A stretch of DNA of 64,000 nt, taken from NCBI GenBank assembly GCA_002457215.1, contig NTJZ01000002.1:124001-188000 (forward strand), given 5' to 3'. A program made the position numbers and the translations under genes. This document shows, piece by piece, positions 6,591 to 62,870 of this stretch. Source of the DNA: OM182 bacterium MED-G28. GTDB lineage: Bacteria; Pseudomonadota; Gammaproteobacteria; Pseudomonadales; Pseudohongiellaceae. The notes under the pieces are model-generated. The model saw only the letters and a list, made by a program, of their open reading frames with translations. It was not told where the DNA came from and did no database searches. The first letter of the stretch is position 1; each line of letters opens with the position of its first letter.

Positions 6591-7063
6591 ACCTGTCTGT
6601 GCAAAGCATTGCGCACTCTTCCTTCTTCTGGCGAAAATATTTTATGTAAGAATAAGTGACAAAAGCTAGCATCTGCAGCTATCGCTTGGTGGCGATTTTA
6701 TGTCCGATTGAAGGTTTGCTAGGCTGTGTTTCGCAAGTAACGAGATACTAAATTTGATAAGAGCTTTAAAAGCTAGGTGTGTTTGCCAAAGATATAGGGG
6801 TAGACGATACAAATTAATTTCAAGCAATCTTAGATGAAAAGCACAGATTAATAATTCGTCAACCAGAATTAGTTGAAGTGCAAGGCGACGTGACACTACC
6901 TATTAAGGATAATCGAGCAAAAGAGGATATTCAGAGAAGTGAAGATGAAGAAAGCTAGAAAAATTAAGTCAGTCCTAGATCATTCAGAAACCTATAATTT
7001 CTAAGATTAAATATAACCTATTGTGGATAGTTGCAACTATCCCAAACAATCAAGTAACGAGCG

Positions 7064-9235
7064 ATGACAAATAAAAAATTAATTGGAAAACTACAAGTAA
7101 GTACCCCCCTCGTACATTTTATTAATGATGAGCTACTCCCAAAGCTCGATATTAAAGCTAATCTCTTCTGGTCTGGTTTCGAAACAATCATTAATGACTT
7201 TACTCCGCGCAATACTGAGCTTTTACTGGAACGCGATGTGCTTCAAGAAAAGATAGATGACTGGCACAGAAAAAATCGAGGCCAGGGTCACGACGCAGGC
7301 GCTTATAAGAAATTCTTATTCGAAATTGGATATTTGACTGACCAAAACACAGAGTTCGAAGTAAGCACTGCTAACGTCGACAGTGAAATTTGCTCCCAAG
7401 CAGGACCGCAGCTTGTCGTGCCAGTAAAAAATGCACGTTTTGCATTGAATGCAGCTAATGCGAGATGGGGGAGTCTTTACGATGCGCTCTATGGCACGGA
7501 TGCGATCTCTGAAGAAAATGGTGCAGATCGTGCGGGAGGGTATAACCCGATCCGTGGCCAAAAAGTAATTAAGTTCTCTAAAAACTTTCTAGATTGCGTG
7601 TGCCCACTAAATAATGGATCTCATCAGGACGTCACTCTATATCAGATCGAGGATGGTAGATTACGTGCACAATTAAATGATGGGTCAGTTTTATCCTTGA
7701 AAAACCCAGATCAATTAAAAGGTTATCTAGGTGATGCCGCTGAACCAAGCAATGTGTTAATCATTAATAATGATTTACATATCGACATTCAGATCGACCG
7801 ACATTCAGAAATTGGAGCGGGAGATGGCGCTGGGGTTAAAGATGTTGTGCTGGAAGCAGCGGTAACTACGATTCAAGATTGCGAAGATTCAGTGGCGGCC
7901 GTTGATGCACAAGACAAAGTTGAAATATATCGAAATTGGCTCGGCTTAATAAATGGAGATCTCACCGACACATTTATTAAAGGAGGGCAACAAACGACTC
8001 GAACGCTGAATCCAGACCGAGAGTTTACTGGCACAAATGAGGAAACAATTAAGTTAGCTGGGCGTAGTCTCTTGTTAGTGAGGAATGTTGGACACTTAAT
8101 GCGTAATAATGCAATCGTTGATGGCAATGGTGAAGAAGTTTATGAAGGCATTATGGACGGTGTAGTTACTAGTGCTATCGCATCTCTAGACGTAGATAGA
8201 AAAAATCATTTAAGTAATTCTAGATCGGGCAGCGTCTACATTGTTAAACCGAAAATGCATGGCCCGGCTGAAGTAAAATTCACTTGTGACCTATTTTCTG
8301 CGATTGAAAAGTTGATAGGAATTGATGCTAATGTGCTTAAAGTCGGCATCATGGATGAAGAACGAAGAACGACGCTTAATCTAAAGGAATGCATTGCAGC
8401 AGCTAAAGAAAGAGTTGTTTTTATTAACACAGGCTTTCTGGATCGAACCGGTGACGAGATACATACTAGTATGGAAGCTGGGCCGATGATCCCTAAGACA
8501 AAGATGAAAGGATCAACTTGGATCGCTTCCTACGAGAACAGTAATGTTGATGTGGGCCTAGCCTCTGGTTTACAGGGGAAAGCACAGATTGGCAAAGGTA
8601 TGTGGGCCATGCCTGATTTGATGGCGGCGATGATGGAACAAAAAATTGGCCACCCGCAAGCTGGCGCAAATACTGCCTGGGTCCCTTCGCCTACAGCTGC
8701 CGTTTTACACGCTATGCACTACCATCACGTGAATGTGATTGCTAAACAGAATGAATTGAAATCTCGCTCCGCAGCAAGCATGGATGACATATTAAAAATT
8801 CCATTGCTTGAAGATCCAACAAGCTTGAGCGCTGAAGAGATTCAGCATGAACTGGATAACAATGCCCAGGGTATTCTTGGTTATGTTGTCCGCTGGATTG
8901 ATCAAGGGATAGGTTGCTCGAAGGTTCCTGATATTAGCAATATTGGTTTGATGGAAGACAGAGCCACTTTAAGAATTTCTAGTCAGCATATGGCTAACTG
9001 GCTGCATCATGGACTGTGCAACAGAAAACAAGTTCAAGAGACTTTGGAACGGATGGCCGCTGTAGTGGATGATCAGAATAAAGAAGATCCTTTGTACGAA
9101 CCTATGTCGGCGAACTTATCTGGTTCAATTGCCTTCAAAGCAGCATGTGATTTGGTTTTTGATGGCCTAAACCAACCCAACGGATATACCGAACCGATAC
9201 TGCATGCTCGTAGGCTTGAGAAAAAACAAGCTTAG
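7064..9235 (+). CDS. glcB: Malate synthase G
   Basis: 723 aa; [26 protein letters not shown] and [19 protein letters not shown] motifs characteristic of malate synthase G. Confidence 0.96.
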
Positions 9236-9303
9236 TTAAAATACAGAGCGTCCTAGGGTTCTATATTAGAGACTTGTTTTTATTGGTTTGTATTGGAGGA
9301 ATT

Positions 9304-10320
9304 TTATCGGCCGCTTTCCTCGGCTTCTTCTCGCTCCAATGCTCGTGCACCGGCTAGAATGCCGGTCATACCGTAGTTGCCTTCATGACAAGCATATTCA
9401 TAAAGATTGCCATCAAGTCTGGATAAAGGGAACTCACCATAAAAATCCGAAGCAAAAATACTTGGATCGCTGACTCTAAAACCGTAAATTAATTTATTGC
9501 CTGTCTCACGGCGAAAAGTTTCAGTAATGGTTAGGTTGTCTGTCGGCATGCCACGAAAAGAGTGCCAGTCATTAAAGTGTTTGGTTTCTACAACTAAAGT
9601 GTCTCCTTCCCAATGGCCTATGGAATCTCCCATCCATTTTTCGTGCGGTTCACTAGCAGGATTGCGCTGGTCAGTGATTTTAATAATACGGGCATCGTGT
9701 ACCATTTCAGCAACAATCGTGACATAACCGGGAGACTGGACAAATTGCAGGTGACTATTGTAGATGACTGGCATCATGACTGGTCCAGCGGAAGGACCAA
9801 ATCCAACCAGGCAGCGTTCAGGTAGGCCTCGACCCTCAGGGCCATCATTTCTGCCAGGGCGATCGACGCGACCGGCACGCACTCTATCCATTACACCTGG
9901 CACTATTTCCGGCATGCGACCATTTGGAGGGTCGATAATCGCTGACGTGCGCATCTCACCATTTATTGTTGGGATAAACTGTGCATCTTCGCGCCAGAAC
10001 AAATCATAATTACCTATAGGAGGCAACGATGAAGCTACTTCGGGCGGAGGTCGATCTGGATCCAAGGGTTCGTTATCCTCATCGAAGCGTTGCTGTTCTG
10101 CTTGTTCGATAGCTAGGGCTTCTTCTTCTGTGTAGAAGCGTTTCTCTCCCAGTTCTCTCGGTCGCTCAAATGGGATGATAGAGCTGTGTTTCCATACCGC
10201 TTGAAAATCAGGTACTCCCCACTCAGTTCGAGGGATTTCATAATCCTGCGCTAAAGCGGGTGATGTTATGACAGTTAATCCAAGGAAAAGAGCTGATTTC
10301 ATTTTCATCTTTCTACTCAT
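9304..10320 (-). CDS. Conserved secreted protein of unknown function (paralogue of 61866..62870)
   Basis: Signal peptide; ERCLVGFGPSAGP, VAEMVHDARI and YEYACHEGNYGMTGILAGARA shared with the second copy. Confidence 0.8.
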   Translation of the reverse strand: MSRKMKMKSALFLGLTVITSPALAQDYEIPRTEWGVPDFQAVWKHSSIIPFERPRELGEKRFYTEEEALAIEQAEQQRFDEDNEPLDPDRPPPEVASSLPPIGNYDLFWREDAQFIPTINGEMRTSAIIDPPNGRMPEIVPGVMDRVRAGRVDRPGRNDGPEGRGLPERCLVGFGPSAGPVMMPVIYNSHLQFVQSPGYVTIVAEMVHDARIIKITDQRNPASEPHEKWMGDSIGHWEGDTLVVETKHFNDWHSFRGMPTDNLTITETFRRETGNKLIYGFRVSDPSIFASDFYGEFPLSRLDGNLYEYACHEGNYGMTGILAGARALEREEAEESGR

Positions 10321-10601
10321 TCGCTTTCTTAAATAGGGGTTTAGGGTTTTGCATTGGTTGGCAGGGTAGGCTTAATCAAGATTTAACCCTGTCTTGGTGC
10401 ATATTTCTTGGTACGTTGAGAGCTTATCATTCCAAGAGTTCAAGTCAATTGTCGAGAAGTCCCTGTTTATGGGCTTTCTGCCACATTTGCAACATTTAGT
10501 GATTTCATCGGAAATATTGAACCTGGTCGCGTTAGTTGTCATGATTAGCAGCTCAGCTAGCAAAGAAAACAAAAGAGCCTCCGGGTTCTTCACTAAGAGG
10601 T

Positions 10602-11732
10602 TTGTTCCACATGCGAAATTTCTCTAAGTTGGTCTTTATTGGACTCGCAGTACTACTTTCCGCCCATACCTATGCCCAAGGCAATGCTCGCGGGAATATT
10701 GGTGAAAGCCCCTACAATGTAATTCGCCACTGGGCTGAACCTTTCCAGGAATTTGGGTTTGGTTTCGGCGGAAACTCGGGGGTTTGGGCAGAATCACCAG
10801 ACCGAATCATTATCACGCAACGCGGTGAAACTGTATTGCCGTTCCCGATTCCAGATGATTTTCCTGGTTATGCCGGTGCGCTAGGCATCAATGTTCTAAG
10901 AGAAACCAATCGCAGAACTTGGCAAAACTGTCTTTATGTTGTGAATGGTGATGGTGAGCCTATCGAAATTTGGGATCACCTGGATTATCTCTGTGAGGGC
11001 TCAGACGGTCCTGGCCCCCACAGAATTCGCATCAGCCCATATGATCCAGAGAACCGTATCTGGTTAGTACATGAAACATTTCACCAGATCTATGTTATTT
11101 CGAACGATGGCTCAGAAGTACTCGCGACTTATGGGGAAAAATTGGTGCCAGGGGATGATGAGACCCATTTTGGTCGACCTCAAGACATTGCCTTTTTGCC
11201 AGACGGCCGAATCCTAATTGCCGATGGATTAGATAACCATCGCGTAATGATCATGGACAGTGAAATGAATTATCTTGGTGAGTTCGGGGGGTTCGGTGAT
11301 GGGCCTGGTCAATTCAACACAATTCATGCCATTGGTATAGGCCCCGAAGGAAGAGTCATTGTTCTTGATCGTTCAGGGGGACAGGTAAACCTTTTTCGTA
11401 CCACCGACGACCCGGCGATTATTGAATTCGAACGTTCTATTGGTTCGCCTTTGACCTTGCCTCTAGATATCATCGTTAACGAAGATGATTTTTGGATTAC
11501 TGATTTAGGACCATTGCGATTTCTTAACTTCGATTTTGAAGGAAATCTGAAATATACCTGGCTAGTACCATTAGATTTGCCAGATGGTTACATCGAAGTT
11601 CATACGTTTTCAGTAGATTCAGAAGGTAATCTTTTTGGTGGTGATAATCAGTATGGTCGGTCACAGAAATTTGTGCCTAAAGAAGGAGTAGGGCCTGAAT
11701 TGCTAATAGAGCCACCATGGACTGCAAATTAA
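10602..11732 (+). CDS. Secreted NHL-repeat/6-bladed beta-propeller protein
   Basis: Signal peptide; repeated GRPQDIAFLPDGRILIADGLDNHRVMI-type NHL blades. Confidence 0.85.
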   Translation: MFHMRNFSKLVFIGLAVLLSAHTYAQGNARGNIGESPYNVIRHWAEPFQEFGFGFGGNSGVWAESPDRIIITQRGETVLPFPIPDDFPGYAGALGINVLRETNRRTWQNCLYVVNGDGEPIEIWDHLDYLCEGSDGPGPHRIRISPYDPENRIWLVHETFHQIYVISNDGSEVLATYGEKLVPGDDETHFGRPQDIAFLPDGRILIADGLDNHRVMIMDSEMNYLGEFGGFGDGPGQFNTIHAIGIGPEGRVIVLDRSGGQVNLFRTTDDPAIIEFERSIGSPLTLPLDIIVNEDDFWITDLGPLRFLNFDFEGNLKYTWLVPLDLPDGYIEVHTFSVDSEGNLFGGDNQYGRSQKFVPKEGVGPELLIEPPWTAN

Positions 11733-11745
11733 TAAGGAAGGACTA

Positions 11746-12681
11746 ATGGGAACAATAACAAAAAAAATATCCTTAGTATTTCTAGGAATTTTCGTCTTAA
11801 GCATCATGTCGAATGCTAGCGCGCAACGCCTAAATAAACTAATCGAGATGTTTGAGAATGATGAGCCAGCTTTTGGTGTTTTGTCCTTCGATTATTCTTT
11901 AGAGAATGCGCGATCACTTGCTACTTCTGGCCTTGATTTCGTTTTTGTTGATATGGAACATGCACCTTTCGATGTTGAGAAGTTGCGACAGTTCTTATTG
12001 GGGATGACCAACAAGCGAGAGATCTTAGAAAAAGGAAACTTGCAACCGAATGTTATTCCCTTGGTGAGAGTGCCTGCTGCTGGTGGAGCTGAGGAATTAA
12101 TTGCTCAAGCGAAACAAGTTTTAGACGTTGGTGTTTTCGGCATTTTCTTTCCTGCAATTCACACACGGGAGCAAGCTGAGCTAGCTGTTAGAGCCACTCG
12201 TTATCCGCAATACAACGGTACTCCAGATTATGAACCGGTTGGATTGAGAGGAAGAAACCCTTCGAATGCAGTATGGTATTGGGGGGTCAGTGATTATCAT
12301 GCCAAGGCTGATGTTTGGCCCCTAGATCCTCAAGGTGAATTACTCTCTATGATGTTTATTGAATCTGCTGAGGGAGTAGAAAACATTGAAGAAATTATTT
12401 CTGTTCCTGGACTAGGCGCTATTTTTATTGGGCCATCAGACTTAAGTACTTCTATGGGCTACACCAGTCCAGCAGCACCAGCAGTGGAAGAAGCTATACA
12501 AACGGTTCTGCGAGCATGCCTGGACAATGATGTACCCTGCGCAATAACTACTGGGGCCGGTTCAGTGCAGGATCGAATTGAGCAAGGCTTTAGATTTGTA
12601 ACAGTTGGAGCAGATGGTGGTTTGAACGCGGGAGCTTCGAACGCACTGCGCCTTGGCAGAGAGGCAGCAGGCCGACCCTAA
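11746..12681 (+). CDS. HpcH/HpaI aldolase/citrate lyase family protein with signal peptide
   Basis: FVFVDMEHAPFD, RVPAAG, GIFFPAI, GAIFIGPSDLSTSMG motifs; N-terminal signal ending SNASAQ. Confidence 0.87.
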   Translation: MGTITKKISLVFLGIFVLSIMSNASAQRLNKLIEMFENDEPAFGVLSFDYSLENARSLATSGLDFVFVDMEHAPFDVEKLRQFLLGMTNKREILEKGNLQPNVIPLVRVPAAGGAEELIAQAKQVLDVGVFGIFFPAIHTREQAELAVRATRYPQYNGTPDYEPVGLRGRNPSNAVWYWGVSDYHAKADVWPLDPQGELLSMMFIESAEGVENIEEIISVPGLGAIFIGPSDLSTSMGYTSPAAPAVEEAIQTVLRACLDNDVPCAITTGAGSVQDRIEQGFRFVTVGADGGLNAGASNALRLGREAAGRP

Positions 12682-12686
12682 ATTTT

Positions 12687-13859
12687 TCACGAGAGGTTTT
12701 CCAGAGTTCGCTGAATTCTAGCGAAAGCCTCTTCTAAAATTTCTTTTTCTTGTCCAAAAGCAATACGCATGTGATGATCCATACCAAAGGAATCACCTGA
12801 ACCAATAAACACACTTGCTTCATTAATTAGTTTCAACATTAAATCGTTAGAGTTGATGTCGAGATTGTACTTAATGAAACTCACCGCAGATGCTTGAGGT
12901 GGGGTGTAAGAAAACAAACCTTCCTGGGCATCCATCCATTTCTGTAAAATCGGAAAACCATTGCGAATATAATTGCGAGCGCGGGCAATGAGTCGTGGTC
13001 GAATTTCTGGTGATAGTGCATGGGCAGCTAAGGTATTACTTAGCATGGATGCGGTTATGGTTGCATATTCATGGCGCCGCCAGATCTTTTCGACAGTATC
13101 AGGCGGGCCGACTATCCAACCAATTCTCAATCCAGGAAGCCCATAGGCTTTGCTCATGCTTCCTACCGAGATCACTTTATCGTAAAGCCCAAAGAAAGAT
13201 TCAGATTCTTCTTCTTGTTCGCGCTCTGCACCTCGATAAACTTCGTCAGCGAGAATCCAGGCTCCGACTCGTTCCGCCGCAGCGATAATACGCTGCGTTT
13301 CGGTTTCAGTAAAAATATGACCGGTTGGGTTGTTGGGGTTAACGACAGCGATAACTTTTGTTTTTTCATTGACTGCTGCTGTTAGTTCGTCAATGTTTAG
13401 TGACCAGCTATCCCCGGAATTCAAAGAGAAAGTCTTAACTTTATACCCTTGATTTTCGGCAATTCCCCAAACTTGCTTATAGGTCGGAGTTATCGTCGCA
13501 AGTTCATCTCCGTCCTCCAGAAGGGTTTGCACAACTATTTGATTAGCTTCTGCCGCGCCCACAGTTACTAACACGTTATTTATGGTAGCTTGATTGTACA
13601 AAGAAGCTATTGACTCTCTTAATGGAGGGCTGCCATTCACATGGGGGTAGTTGATCTCTGTACTCAATAATTTATTGAGCAGCGATTCATCGTTTCCAAT
13701 TAGTTCCTGCAAGGTAATGGGATGGACGCCGCTTTCAGTTAAATTGAAATCAACTTTCTGTTCCCAAACTGACTGGCTATATTCAAGGTCAAAAGGCGTG
13801 AACTTCATGCACATTCCGATAGTGACTGATTTTTCGAGAGCCCATTTTGCCAGATTCAC
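12687..13859 (-). CDS. PLP-dependent class I/II aminotransferase
   Basis: NPNNPTGHIF, LADEVYRG, SMSKAYGLPGLRIGW. Start may be the internal ATG at 13808 (MKFTPFDLEYSQ). Confidence 0.9.
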   Translation of the reverse strand: MNLAKWALEKSVTIGMCMKFTPFDLEYSQSVWEQKVDFNLTESGVHPITLQELIGNDESLLNKLLSTEINYPHVNGSPPLRESIASLYNQATINNVLVTVGAAEANQIVVQTLLEDGDELATITPTYKQVWGIAENQGYKVKTFSLNSGDSWSLNIDELTAAVNEKTKVIAVVNPNNPTGHIFTETETQRIIAAAERVGAWILADEVYRGAEREQEEESESFFGLYDKVISVGSMSKAYGLPGLRIGWIVGPPDTVEKIWRRHEYATITASMLSNTLAAHALSPEIRPRLIARARNYIRNGFPILQKWMDAQEGLFSYTPPQASAVSFIKYNLDINSNDLMLKLINEASVFIGSGDSFGMDHHMRIAFGQEKEILEEAFARIQRTLENLS

Positions 13860-13913
13860 CTAAACTATGCCGCAATTGGAGCAAATAACATTCACTTGTT
13901 AGACTGCCTAGTA

Positions 13914-14681
13914 ATGATCGAACTTAAAAATCTTCAGAAGACATTCGATAATGGCGCGACTTACGCTGTTGCTAATACCTCCTTTTCCGTGGAAAAGGGT
14001 GAATTACTCGGATTAATAGGAGAGTCTGGCAGTGGTAAGACCACAACATTAAAAATGATTAACCGGCTGGAAGAGCCGTCTTCTGGTGAAGTGTATGTTA
14101 ATGGTCAGAATGTGTTAGCCAGTAATCCAGAAGAATTGCGTCGTAATATCGGTTACGTTTTTCAGGGGATAGGCTTATTTCCACATTACACAGTTGCCGA
14201 AAATGTCGCTGCGGTGCCTCAGTTACTTGGCTGGGATGACAATCGAGTTAAGTTGCGTTGCCAAGAAACATTGAAAATGGTTGGCCTTCCTGTCGAGGAA
14301 TATGGTGCTCGCTATTCCTCGCAGCTCTCTGGGGGACAGCAACAACGAGTCGGTGTTGCTCGTGCTCTTGCCTCAGAGCCAGATGTCATCCTTATGGATG
14401 AACCCTTTGGAGCACTCGACCCAATTACGCGGGCCGAATTACAAGAAGAATTTAAACGCATTCAAACTAACTTGAATTTGACTGTCATTATCGTAACCCA
14501 TGACATGACCGAAGCCCTACTTATGGCGGACCGGATCGCCGTGATGAAAGACGGTGAAGTTCTGCAAATCGGAACGCCCCAAGAACTACTCAATAAGCCC
14601 GAACATGAATACGTAAAGAAAATGGTTGATATGCCTAAGCGTCGTGCAGATAGATTAGAGAAGTTGGTGCATTCATCATGA
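13914..14681 (+). CDS. Osmoprotectant (glycine betaine/choline-type) ABC transporter ATP-binding protein
   Basis: Walker A GESGSGKTT, LSGGQQQR signature, Walker B VILMDEP; OpuCA-type. ATG at 13914 preferred over TTG at 13896. Confidence 0.9.
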   Translation: MIELKNLQKTFDNGATYAVANTSFSVEKGELLGLIGESGSGKTTTLKMINRLEEPSSGEVYVNGQNVLASNPEELRRNIGYVFQGIGLFPHYTVAENVAAVPQLLGWDDNRVKLRCQETLKMVGLPVEEYGARYSSQLSGGQQQRVGVARALASEPDVILMDEPFGALDPITRAELQEEFKRIQTNLNLTVIIVTHDMTEALLMADRIAVMKDGEVLQIGTPQELLNKPEHEYVKKMVDMPKRRADRLEKLVHSS

Positions 14682-16201
14682 GTGATAATTTGCGCGAACA
14701 ATTAGTTCTTTTACCAGACTATTTCCAAGGACATTTATTATTGACTCTGATTTCTTTATCTTTGGGAATTATTATCAGTATTCCTCTAGGTGTATGGGCA
14801 GCTCAGTCCAAAATTGTTAAACGACCTCTGTTGACTGCGGTTAGCATAATTCAAACTTTTCCCAGCGTTGCTATATTAGCTATGGTCGTCGCCCTTCTCG
14901 GAGGCCAAATTGGATTGGTCCCGGCGATTATTGCTCTTGTGTTGTATTCCATGTTGCCTATTGTCCGTAACACAGTTACTGGACTAGAAACCGTTGCTGA
15001 TGAAGTGGTAGAGGCTGCTAGAGGTATCGGAATGAGCTCGAACCAAATACTAACTAAGGTGCGTTTACCCTTAGCCTTGCCAGTTATCATAGCGGGAATA
15101 CGCACAGCTGCAGTGTGGACAGTCGGGGTCGCGACTCTTTCAACTTTGGTTGGAGCTACTAGTTTTGGCAACTACATTTTTACTGGTCTACAAACAAGCA
15201 ACTTGGTTTCAGTAACTGTTGGCTCATTAGCAGCTGCGTTAATGGCGATCGTTCTTGATTCCATCATTGGCGGTATTCAATGGCTTACTGAACAGCGCAA
15301 TCAAAAATCTTCCACTAGAAAATTCAAACAGGTTAAGTTCATAGTAATCACTGCGGTGTTACTTGGCGGAAGTTTTTCTGCCTACAGCTTACTGCCAGAA
15401 CCTAAAGCAGATTTTGTAATAGGAGGTAAAGCCTACACCGAGCAGTATATTATCGCTGGCTTATTGGCCACTGAATTAGAAGCTGCTGGTTTTACAGTTG
15501 ATCAAAGAATTGGGATGGGAACCGAAGTTCTTTACACAGCAACGGCTAATGGCACAGTGGATGTTTACTTGGAATACACCGGCACGGTTTGGGCGAATAT
15601 TATGAATAATTCACACAACCCGGGGAGGAAGGTGGTGTTAGAAAGTGTGACAGACTTTGTAAAAGGAAAGGATGGCATGATCAATGTTGGAACTCTGGGT
15701 TTTCAGAATCGTTATGCACTGGCGATGCGAAAAGATCGTGCCCAGGAATTAGGTATAGTATCTATTGAAGACATGATCCCTTTGGCAGATGGATTGATTG
15801 CTGCCGGGGATTTAGAGTTTTTTGGTCGGTTAGAGTGGATTACTTTGCGCGACACTTACAATATTGATTTTGCTGAAAAATTGACCTTTGATTCAACACT
15901 GATGTATACCGCAGTAAATGAAGGGCAGGTCGATTTGATCACTGCCTATACCAGTGATGGCCGTGTCGCTGCATTTGATCTTCAGATTATTGAAGATCCG
16001 AGAAATAGTATGTTGCCCTATGATAGTTTTCTACTCGCTTCCTCGAGAGCTGCTGAGAATAATCGTTTTGTCGAAATCATGCAGACTTTGGTTAATCAGA
16101 TTTCTGATCTCGAAATGCGGGAAGCAAATCGACTTGTGGATGTCGAAGGTCGCTCGGTGTCTGATGCGATAGCATACTTACAGACAATAATTCACGAATA
16201 G
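14678..16201 (+). CDS. Osmoprotectant ABC transporter permease fused to substrate-binding domain
   Basis: N-terminal OpuCB-like permease (EAARGIGMSSNQILTKVRLPLALPVIIAGIRTA) followed by OpuAC/OpuCC-like SBP (GGKAYTEQYIIAGLLA); overlaps the ATPase by 4 nt. Confidence 0.9.
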   Translation: MSDNLREQLVLLPDYFQGHLLLTLISLSLGIIISIPLGVWAAQSKIVKRPLLTAVSIIQTFPSVAILAMVVALLGGQIGLVPAIIALVLYSMLPIVRNTVTGLETVADEVVEAARGIGMSSNQILTKVRLPLALPVIIAGIRTAAVWTVGVATLSTLVGATSFGNYIFTGLQTSNLVSVTVGSLAAALMAIVLDSIIGGIQWLTEQRNQKSSTRKFKQVKFIVITAVLLGGSFSAYSLLPEPKADFVIGGKAYTEQYIIAGLLATELEAAGFTVDQRIGMGTEVLYTATANGTVDVYLEYTGTVWANIMNNSHNPGRKVVLESVTDFVKGKDGMINVGTLGFQNRYALAMRKDRAQELGIVSIEDMIPLADGLIAAGDLEFFGRLEWITLRDTYNIDFAEKLTFDSTLMYTAVNEGQVDLITAYTSDGRVAAFDLQIIEDPRNSMLPYDSFLLASSRAAENNRFVEIMQTLVNQISDLEMREANRLVDVEGRSVSDAIAYLQTIIHE

Positions 16202-16234
16202 TTATGGGACCGAGATTTTTATTAGGTAAAGTAT

Positions 16235-16268
16235 AAAAAGGCCAGCTTTAAAAACGCTGGCCTTTTTT
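16235..16268 (+). terminator. Rho-independent terminator
   Basis: AAAAAGGCCAGC-tttaaaaac-GCTGGCCTTTTTT: perfect stem with T tract after the ABC operon; may be bidirectional. Confidence 0.9.
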
Positions 16269-16296
16269 AATTATCGTATCTGTCATTCGAGAGATA

Positions 16297-17532
16297 TTAC
16301 TGATAAATCGCAGAACGAGCAGCTCCATGAACTTGGACAGAGTAAAGAACATCACTATTTTGAATCATGCCGATGAAGATTATGTTTTCAACTGGATCGA
16401 TCCAAAACCATGAGCCAGCGATACCCCACCACCAATGCGTGCCCTTAGGTGCGCCCTGAAATACATCAGGGTTTTCTACAATTGCAAAGTCGACACCAAA
16501 AACGTTTCCAGGATACAACTGGCCAATTCCTTCCACGCCTTCTGGCAGGTGATTGCTACGCATAATTTGCACGGCTTCTTCAGACAGAATGCGTTCGCCA
16601 TTTAGTGCGCCTTTGTTCAAATGCATCTGCGTAAATTTCATGTAGTCTGCTGCAGTAGATGTAAGTCCGCCACCACCAGAAAGGAATTTTGGTGGGCTTA
16701 GAAAGGCACCGGTATCAGTGCGGATCAGTGATCCATCCTGACCGGGAAAATACTGTCGGGCAAGCCTGTGGGCATTTTCTGATTTTACATAGAAACCTGT
16801 GTCTACCATGCCCAAAGGGTTGAAAATTCTTTCTTGTAAAAATTCGTCAAATGATTGACCGGAAAGTTTTTCTACCAAGTAACCCTGCACATCCACAGAA
16901 ATTGAATAAACCCATTGTGTTCCAGGCTGATAGCCTAAGGGAATGTCTTCAAGTGCAGGTATAGACTCGGCTAAAGTATAATTGGGTAGGTCCATAATTC
17001 CAGCGTTAGCATAGGCTTCAGCAATAGGACCTTGAGATAGCGGCGGTGTATAAAGCAGTCCGCCAGTGTGGCTCATCAATTCACGCACGGTCATTGGATG
17101 ATTAGCAGGTTCCGTTTCCCAGCTGCCGTCTTCATTTTGAGAGACGAATACGTCCACATTGGCTAGTTCTGGCAAATATTTACCAACCGGATCATCAAGT
17201 TCAAATTTTCCTTCATCGAACAGAATCATCAGTGCAGTACCGGTCACCGGTTTTGTCATAGAAAAAATACGGAAGATTGAATCAGTGCTCATCGCTACTT
17301 GGTCTTCTACATTCTGATAACCCAAGGCTTTATTCATTTGAATTTCGCCGTCTTGAGCAATCATAACAACGGCACCAGAAAGTTTGCCTTGGTCTATTCT
17401 GCCCTGTAAATCGGCTTCTACCGCATCTAGGCGAGACCTATCTATATCTGCATTGGCCAGTGCGCTGAAGGCTGATAGAAGCATAATCAGTAAGCTTGAG
17501 ACTAATCGCTGGCTTAGTTGGAAGTGTGACAT
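16297..17532 (-). CDS. Secreted beta-lactamase-family serine hydrolase (EstB/PBP-like)
   Basis: SMTKPVTG (SxxK), YSISVDVQG (YxS/N-like), signal peptide. Confidence 0.9.
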   Translation of the reverse strand: MSHFQLSQRLVSSLLIMLLSAFSALANADIDRSRLDAVEADLQGRIDQGKLSGAVVMIAQDGEIQMNKALGYQNVEDQVAMSTDSIFRIFSMTKPVTGTALMILFDEGKFELDDPVGKYLPELANVDVFVSQNEDGSWETEPANHPMTVRELMSHTGGLLYTPPLSQGPIAEAYANAGIMDLPNYTLAESIPALEDIPLGYQPGTQWVYSISVDVQGYLVEKLSGQSFDEFLQERIFNPLGMVDTGFYVKSENAHRLARQYFPGQDGSLIRTDTGAFLSPPKFLSGGGGLTSTAADYMKFTQMHLNKGALNGERILSEEAVQIMRSNHLPEGVEGIGQLYPGNVFGVDFAIVENPDVFQGAPKGTHWWWGIAGSWFWIDPVENIIFIGMIQNSDVLYSVQVHGAARSAIYQ

Positions 17533-17656
17533 TACTCGTTCCTCTAAAGAATGATATTGAGCATTAATTTTTACTATGCAGTATTAGAGCATCAAACATG
17601 ACAAAAATAAAAGTCTGTAAGAAGGGCTGCACGGTCAGTGAGATTGGGTTAGTAGT

Positions 17657-19117
17657 TTATTGGGGGAGTGGGAAACGATCTAAAATTCTTCGTATGGCTT
17701 CTTCGGTTATAGTCGAACTCACTATATTCATACCACGATGAATTCCTGCAGCAATTTGCAGGGGATCATGGCCTATTTCGTTTTCTTGATTCCAAATTGA
17801 AATTTCTGCGCCTCGTTCACTTAAAAACGTAACCACTGCTGGTAAATGCTTGTAAGCGGCGCCATGCATTGCGGTGTTGCCCATGTTATCGACAGCATTA
17901 ATGTCGCCGCCCAAACTTAAGACATATTGCACTGCCTCCAGGGCCTCCTCTTCCGTGCCAGGATCCTCACCAGGCGCTCCAGTACCGAGACCAGCAGCTA
18001 CCATCAGAGGAGTACTATTGTCATCGTTAGGGATTGTTGGGTCTGCACCAAATTCAACCAGCAATTTCATTAAATCAGCATCGGCGGTTCGTGCTGCTAG
18101 AAGGAATGCTGTTGCTCCCCGCATATTAAGATCGCTAACGCCTACGGGAGGGCGCCTAGTAACTTGTGCATTGATATCTGCACCGGTAGCAATTAGTTTG
18201 CGGGTGAACTCCAATGAGCCGATAACACCAGAGCCTTGGGGTGCTGGATTGTTGCTGCCCGCCTGTCCGGCTTTACGAATCCAGCTGATTTGGTGGATGG
18301 GAGCCCAGCCGAGGGGTGCGGCGTTTGGATTAGCACCTCGATCTAGCAACAGAGCGGCAGTTTCAAAATGAGCACTGCCGATCGCAAGTAATAATGGTGT
18401 CATGCCAGTCTGAGCAGCACCTGACAGCCCATTCTCAGTGACTACTGCTTGTCCTGCAGGCAGCGCTTCTTCGATATCTGCGCCCAGGTCGAGCAATGCT
18501 TCGACGGTCGCAGTTTTTCCCTCCCGGGCAGCAAAAAGCAGGGGAGTAAATCCGCGTTCGGAACGGGCTGTAATATCTGCATTATTGCTAACCAGCAATT
18601 TAACAACTTCAAGATTTCCTTCACCGGCCGCCCACATGAGCGCAGATTGCCCACGCCAACTTTCTCGTTCGTTCACGTTTGCGCCTGCTTCAATTAATAG
18701 CGCAACTGATGCAACAACACCAGTTCGGGCCGCAGTCATGATTACCGTTTCATTTTCTGCCATCGCTGTGTTGGCCAGTCCGCCGGTGCTTAGCAACAGC
18801 CTAACTATTTCGGGGTTGCCATTGTTGGCAGCTAATGAAAGAGGGGCAACACCGTAGCGGTTTTTACTGTTAACCTCAGCACCGGCATTTAAGAGTAGCT
18901 GGGTAATAACTGAATTATCACGATGCACTGACCAATGCAGCGCCTGTGATCCATCAGCCGCTTCTGCGTTAATGTCTATCCCAGAATCTAACAAAGCTCG
19001 CACAGCGGTATTATCTTGCTCTTGAACTGCTTGTATCAAACGTAAGTCCTCCTGAGCTAGCGCCCAGATTGGTGTAAGGACTAAAAAAATTACTGCAATG
19101 TTTTTCTTCACGCTCAA
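17657..19117 (-). CDS. Secreted ankyrin-repeat protein
   Basis: Signal peptide; many ankyrin repeats such as GSQALHWSVHRDNSVITQLLLNAGAEVNSKNRYGVAPLSLAANNGNPEIVRLLL. Confidence 0.93.
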   Translation of the reverse strand: MSVKKNIAVIFLVLTPIWALAQEDLRLIQAVQEQDNTAVRALLDSGIDINAEAADGSQALHWSVHRDNSVITQLLLNAGAEVNSKNRYGVAPLSLAANNGNPEIVRLLLSTGGLANTAMAENETVIMTAARTGVVASVALLIEAGANVNERESWRGQSALMWAAGEGNLEVVKLLVSNNADITARSERGFTPLLFAAREGKTATVEALLDLGADIEEALPAGQAVVTENGLSGAAQTGMTPLLLAIGSAHFETAALLLDRGANPNAAPLGWAPIHQISWIRKAGQAGSNNPAPQGSGVIGSLEFTRKLIATGADINAQVTRRPPVGVSDLNMRGATAFLLAARTADADLMKLLVEFGADPTIPNDDNSTPLMVAAGLGTGAPGEDPGTEEEALEAVQYVLSLGGDINAVDNMGNTAMHGAAYKHLPAVVTFLSERGAEISIWNQENEIGHDPLQIAAGIHRGMNIVSSTITEEAIRRILDRFPLPQ

Positions 19118-54121: not shown

Positions 54122-54961
54122 ATGGAAATGGATTTACAGGAAGTTCAGACCTTTGCGATTGCTATTGCTGAGCAAGCAGGTGAGATAGTTTGTAAGAAGA
54201 GGCTAGAGGCTAAGCTTTCTCATGAATTTAAATATGGCAATGAGTTGGTAACTAATGCTGATCTTGCAGCTGATAAATTTATTAGTGAAGAGATTAGTAA
54301 ACGATATGGCAGTCACTTGATCTTGTCTGAAGAGCTCTCTCCAGATATTGGCAACCTTCAAGAAATCCAGGAATCAGTGTGGATTGTCGATCCTATTGAC
54401 GGCACGGTGAATTTTGCCCATGGACATAATCAGTCAGCAATCTCCATAGCATATGTCGAGCAGCAGCAAGTAAAAATTGGTGTTGTTTATAATCCTTTCA
54501 CTAAGGAAATGTTTTCAGCCTTGAAAGGAGGGGGCGCCTTTCTTAACGATAGTCCGATCAGAATAGTAAATGAGCCAGCGCTTGATCGCGCGATTATTGC
54601 CACAGGGTTTCCTTACGAAAAATCTAATCTGGAACCTATGATTCAACGACTACGCGTCGTATTACATCATTGTGCGGACATTCGGCGACTAGGGTCTGCT
54701 GCTCTCGATATTTGTTGGGTAGCGGCAGGGCGATTAGATGGTTATTACGAAAGCCTCTGTATTTGGGATTTTGCAGCTGCGAGGCTAATAGCAAAGGAGG
54801 CTGGTGCAGAATGCGGTCATTTTAGCGACGTGCCGGAGGGCATCGATCCGCAGTTCCATCCTGACGATTTGTTAATTGCTAATCCTGTTTTATACCCAGA
54901 GTTGAAGCGAATCTTAGGGTCTGCCGCAGAGAAAGAAACTCCATTAAAATCGCTGGGTTAA
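54122..54961 (+). CDS. Inositol monophosphatase-family phosphatase
   Basis: LILSEE, VWIVDPIDGTVNFAHG, WDFAAARLIAKEAG. Confidence 0.92.
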   Translation: MEMDLQEVQTFAIAIAEQAGEIVCKKRLEAKLSHEFKYGNELVTNADLAADKFISEEISKRYGSHLILSEELSPDIGNLQEIQESVWIVDPIDGTVNFAHGHNQSAISIAYVEQQQVKIGVVYNPFTKEMFSALKGGGAFLNDSPIRIVNEPALDRAIIATGFPYEKSNLEPMIQRLRVVLHHCADIRRLGSAALDICWVAAGRLDGYYESLCIWDFAAARLIAKEAGAECGHFSDVPEGIDPQFHPDDLLIANPVLYPELKRILGSAAEKETPLKSLG

Positions 54962-55171
54962 GCTAGGCTTTATAAACGATAAACGGATATCTTTCCGATT
55001 GACGAAAACCCTTATAGGTCGTATGGTTGTGGGGTTTTATTTATGCTGAATTTTCAAAAGAGTGCCTGCTCTAGTAGGGTTACCCGATTCAGGCCGTATG
55101 ATAGAGAAACCCCAGTTTTCGGGATCTATAGACTAATATTCTAAAAAAATATGAAGACTTAGGAGGAAGCA

Positions 55172-56872
55172 GTGAAAAAAGTGAGCTTATTAAAAACTTC
55201 GTTTCTGGCACTGGTACTTATGCCTGCGGTAGCGGCGGCGGCAGACCGTGTTGGAGATTTTTCACTTTTGGATCAAGATGGTTATCACCACGGAATGAGT
55301 TGGTACGATGATCATCAGGCGATTGCATTACTGGTCCAAGCTAATGATAGTGATGCAGCGGCAGTTCCCGCATTTGACGCACTGAAAGCCAAATTTGATG
55401 GAGCTGGCGTTGAATTTCTAATGATTAATCCAATGGGTCGTTTGAATCGAGAAGCTGTACAGGACAAAGTTGCTGAATACGGTGTCGATATTCCTGTATT
55501 AATGGATGATGCGCGCTTGATTTCACAAGCGCTTGGCGTTGCTCGTGTTGGTGAAGTGCTGCTCTTCGATCCGAAGCGATTTACCGTTGAATTCCGCGGA
55601 TCAGTTACCGCTGCGGAAGGTGCAATTGAACAGATTCTTGCCGGCGAAGAAGTATCACCGGCATTGGTCGAAAGTTCTGGCATGGCGGTTTCTTATGAGG
55701 CTGCGGAAAATGTGCCTTCCTATGTGGCAGATATTGCACCGGTGCTGGCTGAGCAATGTGCAACTTGTCATCGCGAAGGTGGAGTAGCGCCATTCGCCAT
55801 GGATAGCCATACCATGGTGCAAGGATGGTCTCCGATGATTCGCGAAGTATTAATGACTCGACGTATGCCCCCCGGTCAGATTGATGGTCATATCGGCGAA
55901 TTCATTAACGATCGGCTGGTTGATAATGAGGACGTTCGCAATATTATTGCCTGGGTTGATGCTGGTGCACCCAAAGACGGTGACCATGATCCACTTGCTC
56001 TATTGCAATGGCCAGAATCCAAGTGGGCTTTTGGTGAGCCAGACTTGGTACTAGACATACCTGCTACCACCGTGCCAGCGACTGGCAATGGTGTATTTGT
56101 GAATGTCGAAGTCAACTTCGACATGGAGGAAGACAGGTGGGTGAGGGGCAGTCAGATTATTGCTGGTGATCGGACAGTCCTTCATCACACGGTTAATCGT
56201 TTAGATTTCCCAGGTGAATCTGGTCGCCGTTTTCTTGGTGGAGATGGAAATAGGGACAAAGCAGACATTACCGCTTATATCCCGGGCGATACTCCAGATC
56301 TAGCACCACCGAATACTGGCGGATTGGTTAAGGCTGGATCAGTCCTTAAATTAAACATGCACTACACGCCAAATGGACGCGAGACAGTTGATAACAGCCA
56401 GCTAGGTGTTTGGTTCTATCCGCTGGGTGAAGTGCCTGAAGAGAGAATGTCAGGACAATGTGCCTGCGTTTTCCCAAATACTTGGACTACAATTCCAGCT
56501 AACGATCCGGCTTTTGAACAGACAGCCAGTATCGTGATTGAGAACGATGCGCACATCCATAGCTACCTTCCACATATGCATTTTCGTGGCAAGCGCATGC
56601 GCTTCGTTGCTGACTATCCAGACGGAACTAGCGAAGAACTTATCAATGTTGCCAAATACAATTACAACTGGCAGCTAAGCTACACCTACAATGAACCTAA
56701 GTTCGTTCCAGGCGGCACCAAGATTACCGCCACGGCAGCGTGGGATAATTCAGGGCAGAATCCAGCAAATCCTAATCCTGATCGCAACGTAGATTGGGGC
56801 AATGAGAGCTGGGATGAGATGTTTTTCGGCGCAGTTAGATGGAAAGATATCGACCAAGGCGGTGAAGACTAA
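55172..56872 (+). CDS. Secreted redoxin-like/cytochrome c/type II copper monooxygenase-like (PHM-fold) fusion
   Basis: Redoxin-like N-terminus; CATCHREGGVAPF haem motif; VLHHTVNRL, NMHYTPNG, HSYLPHMHFRGKRM and WDEMFFGAV copper-ligand-like motifs. Confidence 0.85.
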   Translation: MKKVSLLKTSFLALVLMPAVAAAADRVGDFSLLDQDGYHHGMSWYDDHQAIALLVQANDSDAAAVPAFDALKAKFDGAGVEFLMINPMGRLNREAVQDKVAEYGVDIPVLMDDARLISQALGVARVGEVLLFDPKRFTVEFRGSVTAAEGAIEQILAGEEVSPALVESSGMAVSYEAAENVPSYVADIAPVLAEQCATCHREGGVAPFAMDSHTMVQGWSPMIREVLMTRRMPPGQIDGHIGEFINDRLVDNEDVRNIIAWVDAGAPKDGDHDPLALLQWPESKWAFGEPDLVLDIPATTVPATGNGVFVNVEVNFDMEEDRWVRGSQIIAGDRTVLHHTVNRLDFPGESGRRFLGGDGNRDKADITAYIPGDTPDLAPPNTGGLVKAGSVLKLNMHYTPNGRETVDNSQLGVWFYPLGEVPEERMSGQCACVFPNTWTTIPANDPAFEQTASIVIENDAHIHSYLPHMHFRGKRMRFVADYPDGTSEELINVAKYNYNWQLSYTYNEPKFVPGGTKITATAAWDNSGQNPANPNPDRNVDWGNESWDEMFFGAVRWKDIDQGGED

Positions 56873-57114: not shown

Positions 57115-57609
57115 TTAGAGAATCTCGAATACGTCATAGGCAACTTTGCCTTCTACCTGCTTAGACTTACCAACGAAAACTCGATGATTTAGCCAATCGT
57201 ATTTCTCGGATGCGGTATTAAATACCGGTGTAACTCGCCAATATAAACCGGAGTCATCTCTGGCTACTACGCCCTTGTAAGTCATATAAATAATTGCGCC
57301 ATCGTCGGTTTCCAAGGTGATGCGCACATCGAGACTACTGTGGCCTGAAACCTGAGTGATCCAGTCGGCCCCACCATCGTGCACCATGCCTTTTAAGCGG
57401 GCGCCAGAAAAAGTGCCACCGGTTACTGGCGCAATGCTGGTATGCCCCGCATCAAGTTGAGGATCAACATCCAGCAGTAATTCTAATAAGAATTCAGACT
57501 CTAAGTCACTGGCGGGTGATTGTGCTGTGGCCATGAGAGGTACTCCTACGAGCATGAATGTGGCTATCAAGAAAGAAAACGTACGAAACTCTTTGATTCG
57601 ATTGATCAT
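57115..57609 (-). CDS. Secreted DUF3237-family protein
   Basis: GARLKGMVHDGGADWITQ, GVVARDDSGLYWRVTPVFNTASEKYDWLNHRVFVG. Start at 57609 (MINRIKEF) preferred. Confidence 0.87.
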   Translation of the reverse strand: MINRIKEFRTFSFLIATFMLVGVPLMATAQSPASDLESEFLLELLLDVDPQLDAGHTSIAPVTGGTFSGARLKGMVHDGGADWITQVSGHSSLDVRITLETDDGAIIYMTYKGVVARDDSGLYWRVTPVFNTASEKYDWLNHRVFVGKSKQVEGKVAYDVFEIL

Positions 57610-57651
57610 TATTATTCTCCTGTTAAGGGTTTTGATGATAGTTCGAACCAA

Positions 57652-59979
57652 TCAAGAAGTCACAGTCTCTTGTGTGTTTATTTTATTATCGAAGCGCTTC
57701 AAAATGGTAGGCAGATAAAGTAAGTCCAGCACTAATGCCAACACCACTATAGGGACCAGCAATTTCGCTGATTGCTGGAAATATAATGTATTCGCAAAGA
57801 TCAACACAGTTGTGCCAAAAGCGAGCACTAACGTTGTAATAGTTAGGGCAGGGCCAGCAACCTTTATTGAGTGCGCAATAGAATCACTCTTATTAGCGCC
57901 TGCCCTACGTCCTTCCAGGTAATGGCTTAGTATATGGACTGTATCATCGACTACCAGGCCAATACTTATGCTGAACAACATCATAACAAAAGGATCCAGT
58001 TGTCCCACGAATAATGCCCATAATCCAAAAACAATAGTTGCTGGAAGTAAGTTTGGTATTACACTTAGTATTCCAAAATACAAACTTCTAAAACCAATTA
58101 TCAAACAAAGTGTAATAAGTAATAGACTAATTGAATAACCTTGCAATAACTCAATTGTTACAAGTTCATCCATGCGAGCAAACAAGAGTATTCCACTTCC
58201 ATGGATTAGATTGGCTGTCTCGAAAGAGTCGGCAAATTGGGCAGTAATCCTTTTATCTAGATCAATGATTTCCTGATTAGACAACGGCAACGCATTCACT
58301 GTTAGGGTCAACTGAGAACTAGTCTTGTTAAGAAAGCTCGCCAGGGGTATGTAGTTTCTCTCTACAGTCCGATAGGCATTGAGATAGTTAGTATTAGTTT
58401 GAGTATCAAGTGGCAAAAAAAAGTATTCTTCTTGATTGTCATTTACTATCTGATTAATTGTTTTCAATACGTCGGTCAAACTTATAACAGATTCAACATC
58501 TTCCTGAGAAACTAGCCATTGTGAAAATTCGTCAATCTTGGTTAAAAAAATTGGGTCTATCGCGCCGTTCTCTATAGTGCTATCGATGCCATAGGTTAAT
58601 GCTGGACCTCGATTCATGTGCTCGCTTACCACATCGTAATATTGACGAACCTCAGAATCGTCTGCTACGAAATCTAATCGATCAAAATCAGTTTCATTGA
58701 GAGGCAGCATTAACAAAGTAACAACTGCTATGGTGCTGCAAGTCCAAAAAATTCTTTTGTCATGCAAGTTAGTGAAATCTATGATCTGCTGAAGTTGATT
58801 CTGCAGAAAGGGGATATCTGTAGGATCAGAATCTTTGGGTAGCTTAGATAGCCATATAAGCAGGGAGGGCAGCATAGACAGGGTAAGCAGATAGGAAAAA
58901 ATAATGCCAATTGCCACAATGCGTCCAAAATCTTGCACTGCTGGCGACGAGCACATGTTAAGTGACGAAAACCCTATAGCAGTCGTAAGCGCCGCTAACG
59001 TTACTGGTTGGAAGTTATAGTCCATACTATGGCGCATTGAAGCCACTTTCGATTGCCCTTTATAGAGGGCTTGTTTGTAGACTGAAATGATATGAACACT
59101 GGTAGCCACTGAAATTATGACGACGACCAAAGGAGCAATGATGGAAATATTGTTGAAAGCGAAGCTTAAGTAGCCCAATGCACCCACAGTGCAAAGCACA
59201 GTGAATAACACATGGGCGAGAATACAAATTCCCAGTGTAATAGATTTAAAGCAGTAACAAATTACTAATACGCAAAGAAGAATTACGATCGGGAGAAGGG
59301 TGGTTAAATCATCTATCATGGCCTGTTGGCTAGATTGCTCAAGAAGAACATCTGCATTAGCAAATAGCGTTACTTCAGGATTTGATAGCCGTAACTGCGA
59401 TTGCAGATCCAGCACAGCAGTAGCAATTTCCAGCCGCCCTTCATTGCCAACATCTCTGTTGTTTAACGTAATAACAGCAAAAGTCAAAGCACCATTCTTC
59501 GAAAGCAAGTTATTCGTTAGCAGCCTATCCTTTCTAGCATTTTCGCTGACTTGTAGCAGCTCAGGGGTAGAATATTCCTCCAATGGTTTGCTAAATAAAC
59601 GGGCTTGAGTCTCAGGAGAAGTAAATTCAAGTATCGTTGTGATGCCGCGAATGCGGGGAATAGTGGTGAATGTCTCCTTGAGCTCTGCGATCGCATAGAG
59701 AACAGCGGGCGTGAAAACGGTTTCACCTGGTTGCGCAATGAATGCGAAACGAATTTCTGAATTGGGAGGAAACTCTTCACTTAAAAGCTCAAGTTCATCA
59801 AGATAAGGGTCGCTTTCGGTTAGTAATGCGTTTAAAGAGGTATCAAAACTCGTTCGTAGTATTCCTATGCTTAGTAGTAGTGTAACGACAGTTGCAAGCA
59901 TAATCAGGATTTTGTGATTAGCAACAGTTAAGTGCGCAACTCGTTGCGATAAAGAAAAATTTCGTGTTGCGATTTTCAC
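57652..59979 (-). CDS. RND-superfamily MMPL-type transporter
   Basis: 775 aa, two sets of clustered TM segments; ISIGLVVDDTVHILSHYLEGRRAG and LAALTTAIGFSSLNMCSSPAVQDFG. Confidence 0.92.
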   Translation of the reverse strand: MKIATRNFSLSQRVAHLTVANHKILIMLATVVTLLLSIGILRTSFDTSLNALLTESDPYLDELELLSEEFPPNSEIRFAFIAQPGETVFTPAVLYAIAELKETFTTIPRIRGITTILEFTSPETQARLFSKPLEEYSTPELLQVSENARKDRLLTNNLLSKNGALTFAVITLNNRDVGNEGRLEIATAVLDLQSQLRLSNPEVTLFANADVLLEQSSQQAMIDDLTTLLPIVILLCVLVICYCFKSITLGICILAHVLFTVLCTVGALGYLSFAFNNISIIAPLVVVIISVATSVHIISVYKQALYKGQSKVASMRHSMDYNFQPVTLAALTTAIGFSSLNMCSSPAVQDFGRIVAIGIIFSYLLTLSMLPSLLIWLSKLPKDSDPTDIPFLQNQLQQIIDFTNLHDKRIFWTCSTIAVVTLLMLPLNETDFDRLDFVADDSEVRQYYDVVSEHMNRGPALTYGIDSTIENGAIDPIFLTKIDEFSQWLVSQEDVESVISLTDVLKTINQIVNDNQEEYFFLPLDTQTNTNYLNAYRTVERNYIPLASFLNKTSSQLTLTVNALPLSNQEIIDLDKRITAQFADSFETANLIHGSGILLFARMDELVTIELLQGYSISLLLITLCLIIGFRSLYFGILSVIPNLLPATIVFGLWALFVGQLDPFVMMLFSISIGLVVDDTVHILSHYLEGRRAGANKSDSIAHSIKVAGPALTITTLVLAFGTTVLIFANTLYFQQSAKLLVPIVVLALVLDLLYLPTILKRFDNKINTQETVTS

Positions 59980-61865: not shown

Positions 61866-62870
61866 TTGGAGATTATCGTGAATAACTTGTTTTGTCTCAA
61901 AATACGCTTTCAAGCTTTTGTAGCTCTAATACTTTTTCCGGCCATTGCTGTCGGCCAGGACTATGCAGTAGCTCGCACCAGTTTTGGTGTCCCTGATTTA
62001 CAAGGAACATATAACATTGCCACTGTCACAATGCTGGAACGAGGCGAACAATTTGGTGGTGAGCTGGTTATCACGCCAGAAGAAGCCGCTCGAATTGGTC
62101 AGACTGGTGAAAGCTATCTTGATACGTTGATTGAGAGCGTGGGTGGCGCAGAGGCTGCTGTGGGAGGATACAATACTTTTTGGATGGACCCGGGCGAGCG
62201 CATGGCTTTAATAGATGGCGGGATACGCACTTCGATAATTGTCGAGCCAGAAAATGGTCGTCTACCTTGGGCCGAAGGCGCCCTGCAAAGCATTTTTGCT
62301 GCTCGAGCAGGGGTTGGTGAATTCGACGGTCCTGAAGTGAGGCCAATGGCAGAACGCTGCCTCGTTGGCTTTGGGTCTTCCGGTGGTCCTCCCATGTTGC
62401 CGGTTTTGTACAACAACCATAAGCAGATAGTGCAGACTGAAGATTATGTAATGATAATGGCTGAGATGAATCATGATGCTAGAATTGTGCGCATGAAAGA
62501 CAGTACTCATGACGAAATTGCTAAGTGGTTAGGTGATTCTGTTGGATATTATGATGGAGACACCTTGGTGGTTGAAACCACCAATTTTCATCCACAGCAG
62601 GGCTTGCGTGGTGCTCTTCGACATTTCTTATTTCTGTCTCCTGACGCCAAAGTGACTGAACGTTTTTCTCGACTTGATGAAAACACTTTGCTCTATCGTT
62701 TTACCGTTAACGATCCAAAAATGTTCTCTAGACCATGGACCGGAGAATTACCTATGAATGCTGTGGAAGATATTATCTACGAATACGCTTGCCATGAAGG
62801 TAACTACGCAATGCCGGGAATTCTCGCTGGTGGTCGCCGGGCGGAATATGAAGCAGCTTCGCAGAATTGA
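61866..62870 (+). CDS. Conserved secreted protein of unknown function (paralogue of 9304..10320)
   Basis: ERCLVGFGSSGGPPMLPVLYNNH, MAEMNHDARIVRM, YEYACHEGNYAMPGILAGGRR. GTG at 61878 may be the true start. Confidence 0.8.
   Translation: MEIIVNNLFCLKIRFQAFVALILFPAIAVGQDYAVARTSFGVPDLQGTYNIATVTMLERGEQFGGELVITPEEAARIGQTGESYLDTLIESVGGAEAAVGGYNTFWMDPGERMALIDGGIRTSIIVEPENGRLPWAEGALQSIFAARAGVGEFDGPEVRPMAERCLVGFGSSGGPPMLPVLYNNHKQIVQTEDYVMIMAEMNHDARIVRMKDSTHDEIAKWLGDSVGYYDGDTLVVETTNFHPQQGLRGALRHFLFLSPDAKVTERFSRLDENTLLYRFTVNDPKMFSRPWTGELPMNAVEDIIYEYACHEGNYAMPGILAGGRRAEYEAASQN

Follow-up and report, generated by a model that had tools for sequence, protein, structure and literature searches.

A bacterial redoxin-cytochrome c-PHM fusion protein predicted to belong to the PHM/DBH copper monooxygenase superfamily

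Fold and copper ligands compared with PHM and DBH

The closest described systems are peptidylglycine alpha-hydroxylating monooxygenase (PHM) and dopamine beta-hydroxylase (DBH), enzymes whose core serves animals in the production of neuropeptides and noradrenaline. CuH of rat PHM is bound by H107, H108 and H172 (PMC6123673), and the two sets of ligands in human DBH are H262/H263/H333 and H412/H414/M487 (PMC4846438). Chain A of DBH presents the closed conformation of the catalytic core, and the DOMON domain of the enzyme has a fold in common with a haem domain (PMC4846438). How the coppers of PHM/DBH, which lie far apart, receive their electrons is debated, as is the closure of the lobes during catalysis (PMC4846438, PMC6123673). 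Many monooxygenases have been noted in marine bacteria, their reported annotations being mostly cytochrome P450 (PMC8371827).

The gene described here lies in a window of 64,000 nucleotides, the whole stretch of DNA analysed, to which all coordinates refer unless another locus is named. It is complete (55172-56872, + strand), starts with GTG 5 nt downstream of a Shine-Dalgarno sequence, AGGAGG (55161-55166, +), and encodes a fusion protein of 566 amino acids. The open reading frame and the motifs that an earlier note had quoted from it (CATCH, VLHHTV, NMHYTPNG, LPHMHFRG and WDEMFF) are all present, and the three domains proposed there, redoxin-like, CATCH haem and PHM-like, are supported. The full-length AlphaFold2 model, computed from an alignment of 71 homologues, has a mean pLDDT of 89.4 and a pTM of 0.86, a value which suggests that the three predicted domains are packed in a defined arrangement.

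Structure prediction, which the same note had called for, yields a PHM/DBH fold. Modelled alone, the PHM part (residues 279-566) has a pLDDT of 89.6, and its 31 best Foldseek matches in the PDB include nothing but PHM and DBH entries (E values between 8.5e-12 and 8.5e-8), led by rat PHM (E 8.5e-12) and human DBH; the top match by TM-score is human DBH chain A (TMq 0.71). The model contains two consecutive jelly-roll lobes, an N-lobe or CuH domain at about residues 285-425 (56024-56446, +) and a C-lobe or CuM domain at about residues 426-560 (56447-56851, +), and the top PDB matches to PHM/DBH extend across the full length. With the full chain as query, Foldseek returned PHM/DBH together with 3u5r, 2ywi and ResA, the latter three matching the N terminus.

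Single-sequence searches are far less revealing. Pfam scores for the fusion protein are sub-threshold for AhpC-TSA (22.1 against 26 bits), for the CBB3 cytochrome (15.4 against 27) and for Cu2_monoox_C (PF03712; 12.3 against 23), and the Pfam scan gave no match to PF01082, the curated cut-offs of PF03712 and PF01082 being detection thresholds and not biological criteria. NCBIfam returned nothing above threshold for the protein alone, and a PDB search with its single sequence gave weak redoxin matches only. Elsewhere one paralogue exceeds the Cu2_monoox_C cut-off (26.3 bits), and a search across the phylum indicates that this Pfam model overlooks nearly all haem-PHM proteins. The redoxin assignment rests on profile and fold searches, that of the PHM part on fold searches, and that of the cytochrome on the invariant CxxCH with a weak Pfam match.

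All six candidate copper ligands are in register with those of rat PHM, as the earlier note had proposed from the motifs. The predicted CuH ligands are H338-H339 (VLHHTV; 56183-56188, +), equivalent to rat H107/H108, and H397 (NMHYTPNG; 56360-56362, +), equivalent to rat H172. The predicted CuM ligands are the two histidines of H468-M-H470 (LPHMHFRG; 56573-56581, +) and the thioether of M550 (WDEMFF; 56819-56821, +), equivalent to rat H242/H244 and M314. The register was checked in two steps through a distant bacterial protein, L167, whose two PHM domains each score above the Pfam cut-off. In the first step hhalign matched the family profile to L167 (E 2.3e-31); in the second phmmer matched L167 directly to rat PHM (1opm; E 2.8e-7). 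Both alignments bring HH, H, HxH and M into coincidence. At sequence level, then, the proposal of the note escapes an outcome that it had named as fatal, ligands that cannot be placed on the CuH and CuM sites of PHM.

The alignment of the 71 homologues, the most distant at 36% identity, has only 49 invariant columns. Apart from H200, assigned to the haem, the histidines among them are H338, H339, H397, H468 and H470 and no others; C196, C199 and M550 are likewise invariant. As judged from the alignment, this conservation of the motifs is beyond chance. The six candidate copper ligands are kept in 106 of 107 sequences, redoxin-less ones included. At the level of predicted fold and ligands, we assign the fusion protein to the PHM/DBH superfamily, with a presumed mode of action like that of PHM/DBH, and do not class it as a peptidylglycine hydroxylase.

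R240, N316 and Y318 of PHM anchor the peptide C terminus. Their equivalents in the fusion protein are L466, F552 and A554, and since the anchoring residues are absent the substrate is probably not peptidylglycine, which was rejected as a candidate on this ground. The positions of R240 and Y318 are occupied by Arg and Tyr in the sister paralogues L035 and L036 and their relatives, and the pair differs clade by clade, which fits substrate divergence among paralogues. The residues adjoining the CuM ligands also differ by clade in the 71-homologue alignment. The fusion protein thus has in common with rat PHM (PDB 1opm/1phm) the double jelly-roll and both sets of ligands, HH and H at CuH and HxH and M at CuM, but differs in being bacterial, in being joined to a cytochrome c and a redoxin, and in lacking the peptidylglycine carboxylate anchor; no ascorbate dependence is known for it.

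The cytochrome c and redoxin domains

The domain that precedes the copper lobes is a class-I c-type cytochrome (residues 183-280; 55718-56011, +), delimited from Pfam, AlphaFold2 and the alignment. Its haem attachment motif, C196-A-T-C199-H200 (55757-55771, +), is invariant in 71/71 homologues, as is M232 of the RMPP motif (55865-55867, +), a candidate sixth (distal) haem ligand; M222 is invariant alongside this methionine. CxxCH and M232 are also invariant in a set of 28 sequences, among them ten redoxin-less paralogues. To carry a cytochrome c on the same chain is general among these bacterial PHM-like proteins. Two-domain cytochrome c-PHM proteins (such as L167 and L041-L051) have the same CxxCH, MPP, HH, H, HxH and M, but no redoxin, and next to several of them lies a conserved partner gene, which is absent beside the fusion. 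Because the onboard haem is common to redoxin-less relatives, the redoxin fusion, and not the haem, is the narrower feature. The earlier description of a 'self-contained' oxygenase is also overstated, because the haem domain still depends on an external electron donor. The fusion protein and human DBH (PDB 4zel) have in common the catalytic core and an accessory domain N-terminal to it, but DBH carries a DOMON and a dimerisation domain and takes its electrons from ascorbate, whereas the accessory part of the fusion protein consists of a c-type cytochrome and a redoxin.

The redoxin domain (thioredoxin fold; residues 25-165; 55244-55666, +) was delimited from Pfam, profile and Foldseek matches. 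A profile built from 28 homologues matches the redoxin structures 3u5r (E 8e-18) and 2ywi (E 2e-16), and the domain has the fold and sequence profile of PRX-like/ResA-type redoxins (3u5r, 2ywi, ResA); unlike them, it is degenerate and lacks the catalytic cysteines. The only cysteines of the fusion protein are at positions 196, 199, 430 and 432, leaving residues 1-195 without any, so that thiol chemistry is impossible for the redoxin domain. A tree built from 107 sequences shows that loss of the redoxin cysteine spans the whole branch of the target, with a few retentions. We infer that the domain is vestigial, its present role being that of a scaffold or docking surface.

The remaining cysteine pair, C430-A-C432 (56459-56467, +), forms a CxC motif in the CuM lobe, located from the cysteine positions and confined to the target's clade in the same tree. 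This motif is a possible disulfide or metal site, or neither. The clade with the CAC motif is also the clade without the redoxin cysteine. A stand-alone redoxin of the same type that does have a cysteine (GVGCPIAR) is encoded about 16 kb downstream of the fusion gene (L052/L179 14550-15137; G000:C12:196681-197100).

Predicted mechanism and alternatives

The N terminus of the fusion protein is a Sec-type signal, MKKVSLLKTSFLALVLMPAVAAAA, predicted from sequence and from low pLDDT at residues 1-20 to comprise residues 1-24 (...VLMPAVAAAA; 55172-55243, +). Export to the periplasm is therefore expected. The periplasm is the place of c-type haem attachment, and copper enzymes are commonly found there. 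We consider it probable that the protein is a periplasmic, haem-fed dicopper monooxygenase of the PHM/DBH class with a vestigial redoxin scaffold. In its two jelly-roll lobes, H338/H339/H397 would bind CuH and H468/H470/M550 would bind CuM, and haem c would be bound covalently through C196/C199/H200, probably with M232, on the same chain as the copper lobes. Single electrons would pass from a periplasmic electron-transfer chain to haem c and on to CuH and CuM, in place of ascorbate. CuM would activate O2 for the insertion of one of its oxygen atoms into a C-H bond of a small organic compound other than peptidylglycine, the paralogues having presumably diverged in their substrate pockets, and the cysteine-less N-terminal redoxin domain would provide a scaffold or a surface for docking. 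The analysis itself shows the domains and their fold, the register and invariance of the ligands, the absence of the redoxin cysteine and the number of family genes; that copper and haem are loaded, that electrons take this path, that a substrate is hydroxylated and that the redoxin is a scaffold is what we infer.

The protein might instead be a PHM-type copper monooxygenase in which the cytochrome is not the direct electron source, a diffusible reductant taking its place or H2O2 driving a peroxygenase reaction, while the haem docks, senses or sends electrons elsewhere. DBH, which runs on diffusible ascorbate without haem (PMC4846438), speaks for such an arrangement, but the cytochrome is retained with and without the redoxin (in the 71-homologue set, the 28-sequence set and the distant L167), which argues for a coupled role; we think this reading unlikely. 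We regard it as distinctly improbable that the PHM fold serves a copper/haem redox protein with some function other than monooxygenation, for example that of an oxidase, of a nitrite or peroxide reductase or of a copper-handling protein. Against this, the two mononuclear sites are invariant in the 71 homologues, down to the methionine that marks CuM, and the residues next to CuM vary between clades as expected of substrate selection. In favour of this alternative are the persistence of a paralogue with broken CuM ligands (L038) and the fact that the open-access literature searched contained no activity for bacterial haem-PHM proteins.

An active redoxin, working as a thiol-disulfide module that feeds electrons to haem or copper, is very improbable in spite of the redoxin fold and of the single cysteine kept in related fusions (GNGCP type; column 60, 26/71 homologues): residues 1-195 contain no cysteine, the loss runs throughout the target's clade, and the candidate was rejected for this protein. 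There is scarcely any chance that separate genes were fused by an error of assembly or gene modelling. The window does come from a draft genome of 25 contigs, but the identical single-ORF layout recurs in many other assemblies from the genus, some of them in one contig (such as G024 and G056), and related fusions occur in the Steroidobacteraceae isolates Povalibacter and Peristeroidobacter; an artefact was ruled out by the recurrence of the ORF.

If the haem-fed monooxygenase is correct, a homologue that carries its own haem would make it possible to follow the delivery of single electrons optically, without ascorbate. Given 17 haem-plus-copper genes in the genome, respiratory electrons may replace vitamin C for oxidations, and this marine bacterium may oxidise compounds in that way. 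More tentatively, we propose that Pseudohongiella and its relatives, as a whole lineage of marine gammaproteobacteria, have switched the ascorbate-dependent PHM/DBH chemistry of the animal type to respiratory electrons by covalent cytochrome c fusion, with about 17 substrate-diverged oxygenases per genome and, in the branch of the target, a dead redoxin scaffold and a new CxC in the CuM lobe. Such a lineage-wide family would add an oxygenase class to poorly annotated marine bacteria.

Gene context and family members

The fusion gene appears monocistronic. Upstream is an inositol-monophosphatase-like gene (54122-54961, +; family named by reading the sequence), which is syntenic and probably unrelated; on the other side follow a convergent DUF3237 gene (57115-57651, -; Pfam) and, further downstream, an MMPL/HAE3-type RND transporter (57652-59979, -; Pfam/NCBIfam). 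These three neighbours are retained in most near relatives inspected. No functionally linked neighbour or operon partner was seen at the locus or in near relatives, and promoter and terminator scans around the gene gave results no better than chance. The protein has no match in plasmid and phage collections, which led us to reject a mobile-element origin.

The genome contains 17 haem-PHM genes, 6 with a redoxin and 11 without. Matches to the fusion protein were found in 60/60 other genomes of the genus searched, with a dozen or more in most, and the sister genus has family members in 6/6 genomes. Beyond these the family is sparse: a 245-genome sample of the order yielded 10 genomes in other families, the class sample 4 and the phylum sample a single one. 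The relatives that carry a name are Pseudohongiella-type MAGs and, among the Steroidobacteraceae, Povalibacter and Peristeroidobacter. The open-access papers searched contained nothing on point about bacterial cytochrome c-PHM fusions, which is weak evidence of novelty.

In the redoxin-haem-PHM paralogue L038 (G000:C24:2448-4091), the CuM motif HMH is changed to RMN. Without its CuM histidines, L038 is possibly, to judge by its motif, a CuM-less member that is not an oxygenase, so that not every family member need be one.

Another cluster, L168 (G000:C24:63000-82000; 6384-17915), has three redoxin-haem-PHM paralogues flanking two NHL six-bladed propellers (9960-11144 and 11303-12493, -). The propellers match PAL (3fvz) and carry PAL-like motifs (ADGYxNKR, CDRGADR and three His); in the PDB search PAL is among the matches but is outscored by other NHL proteins. 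Arg/Tyr stands at the rat R240/Y318 positions in two of the cluster's three PHM domains. L168 is a possible bacterial PHM plus PAL cluster of the amidation type, in which the PAL assignment is not secure.

Two secreted families recur beside haem-PHM genes. The first, with a 'PDLQG.W' start, is multicopy in this genome and often adjoins them (window 9304-10320 and 61866-62870; L178 7686-8678; L170 4480-5433; L179 15465-16553); no Pfam match was obtained for the copies in the window or for that in L178, which were scanned. The second is a secreted companion of about 310 amino acids (MFGYMNENWEE..FFSPG..QPTHF pattern) that adjoins seven short cytochrome c-PHM genes (L170 5531-6208, L169 1244-2179, L173 9594-10523, L174 7663-8640, L175 5415-6362, L176 6507-7355 and L177 5946-6761). 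The two copies scanned had no match in Pfam, and it is a candidate obligate partner of the short cytochrome c-PHM proteins.

Redoxin-haem-PHM fusions of other families (L067, L068-L071, L081, L082 and L153) bear a C-terminal EF-hand pair. Pfam returned EF-hand matches in up to 5 members, which suggests a calcium-responsive, four-domain version of the protein.
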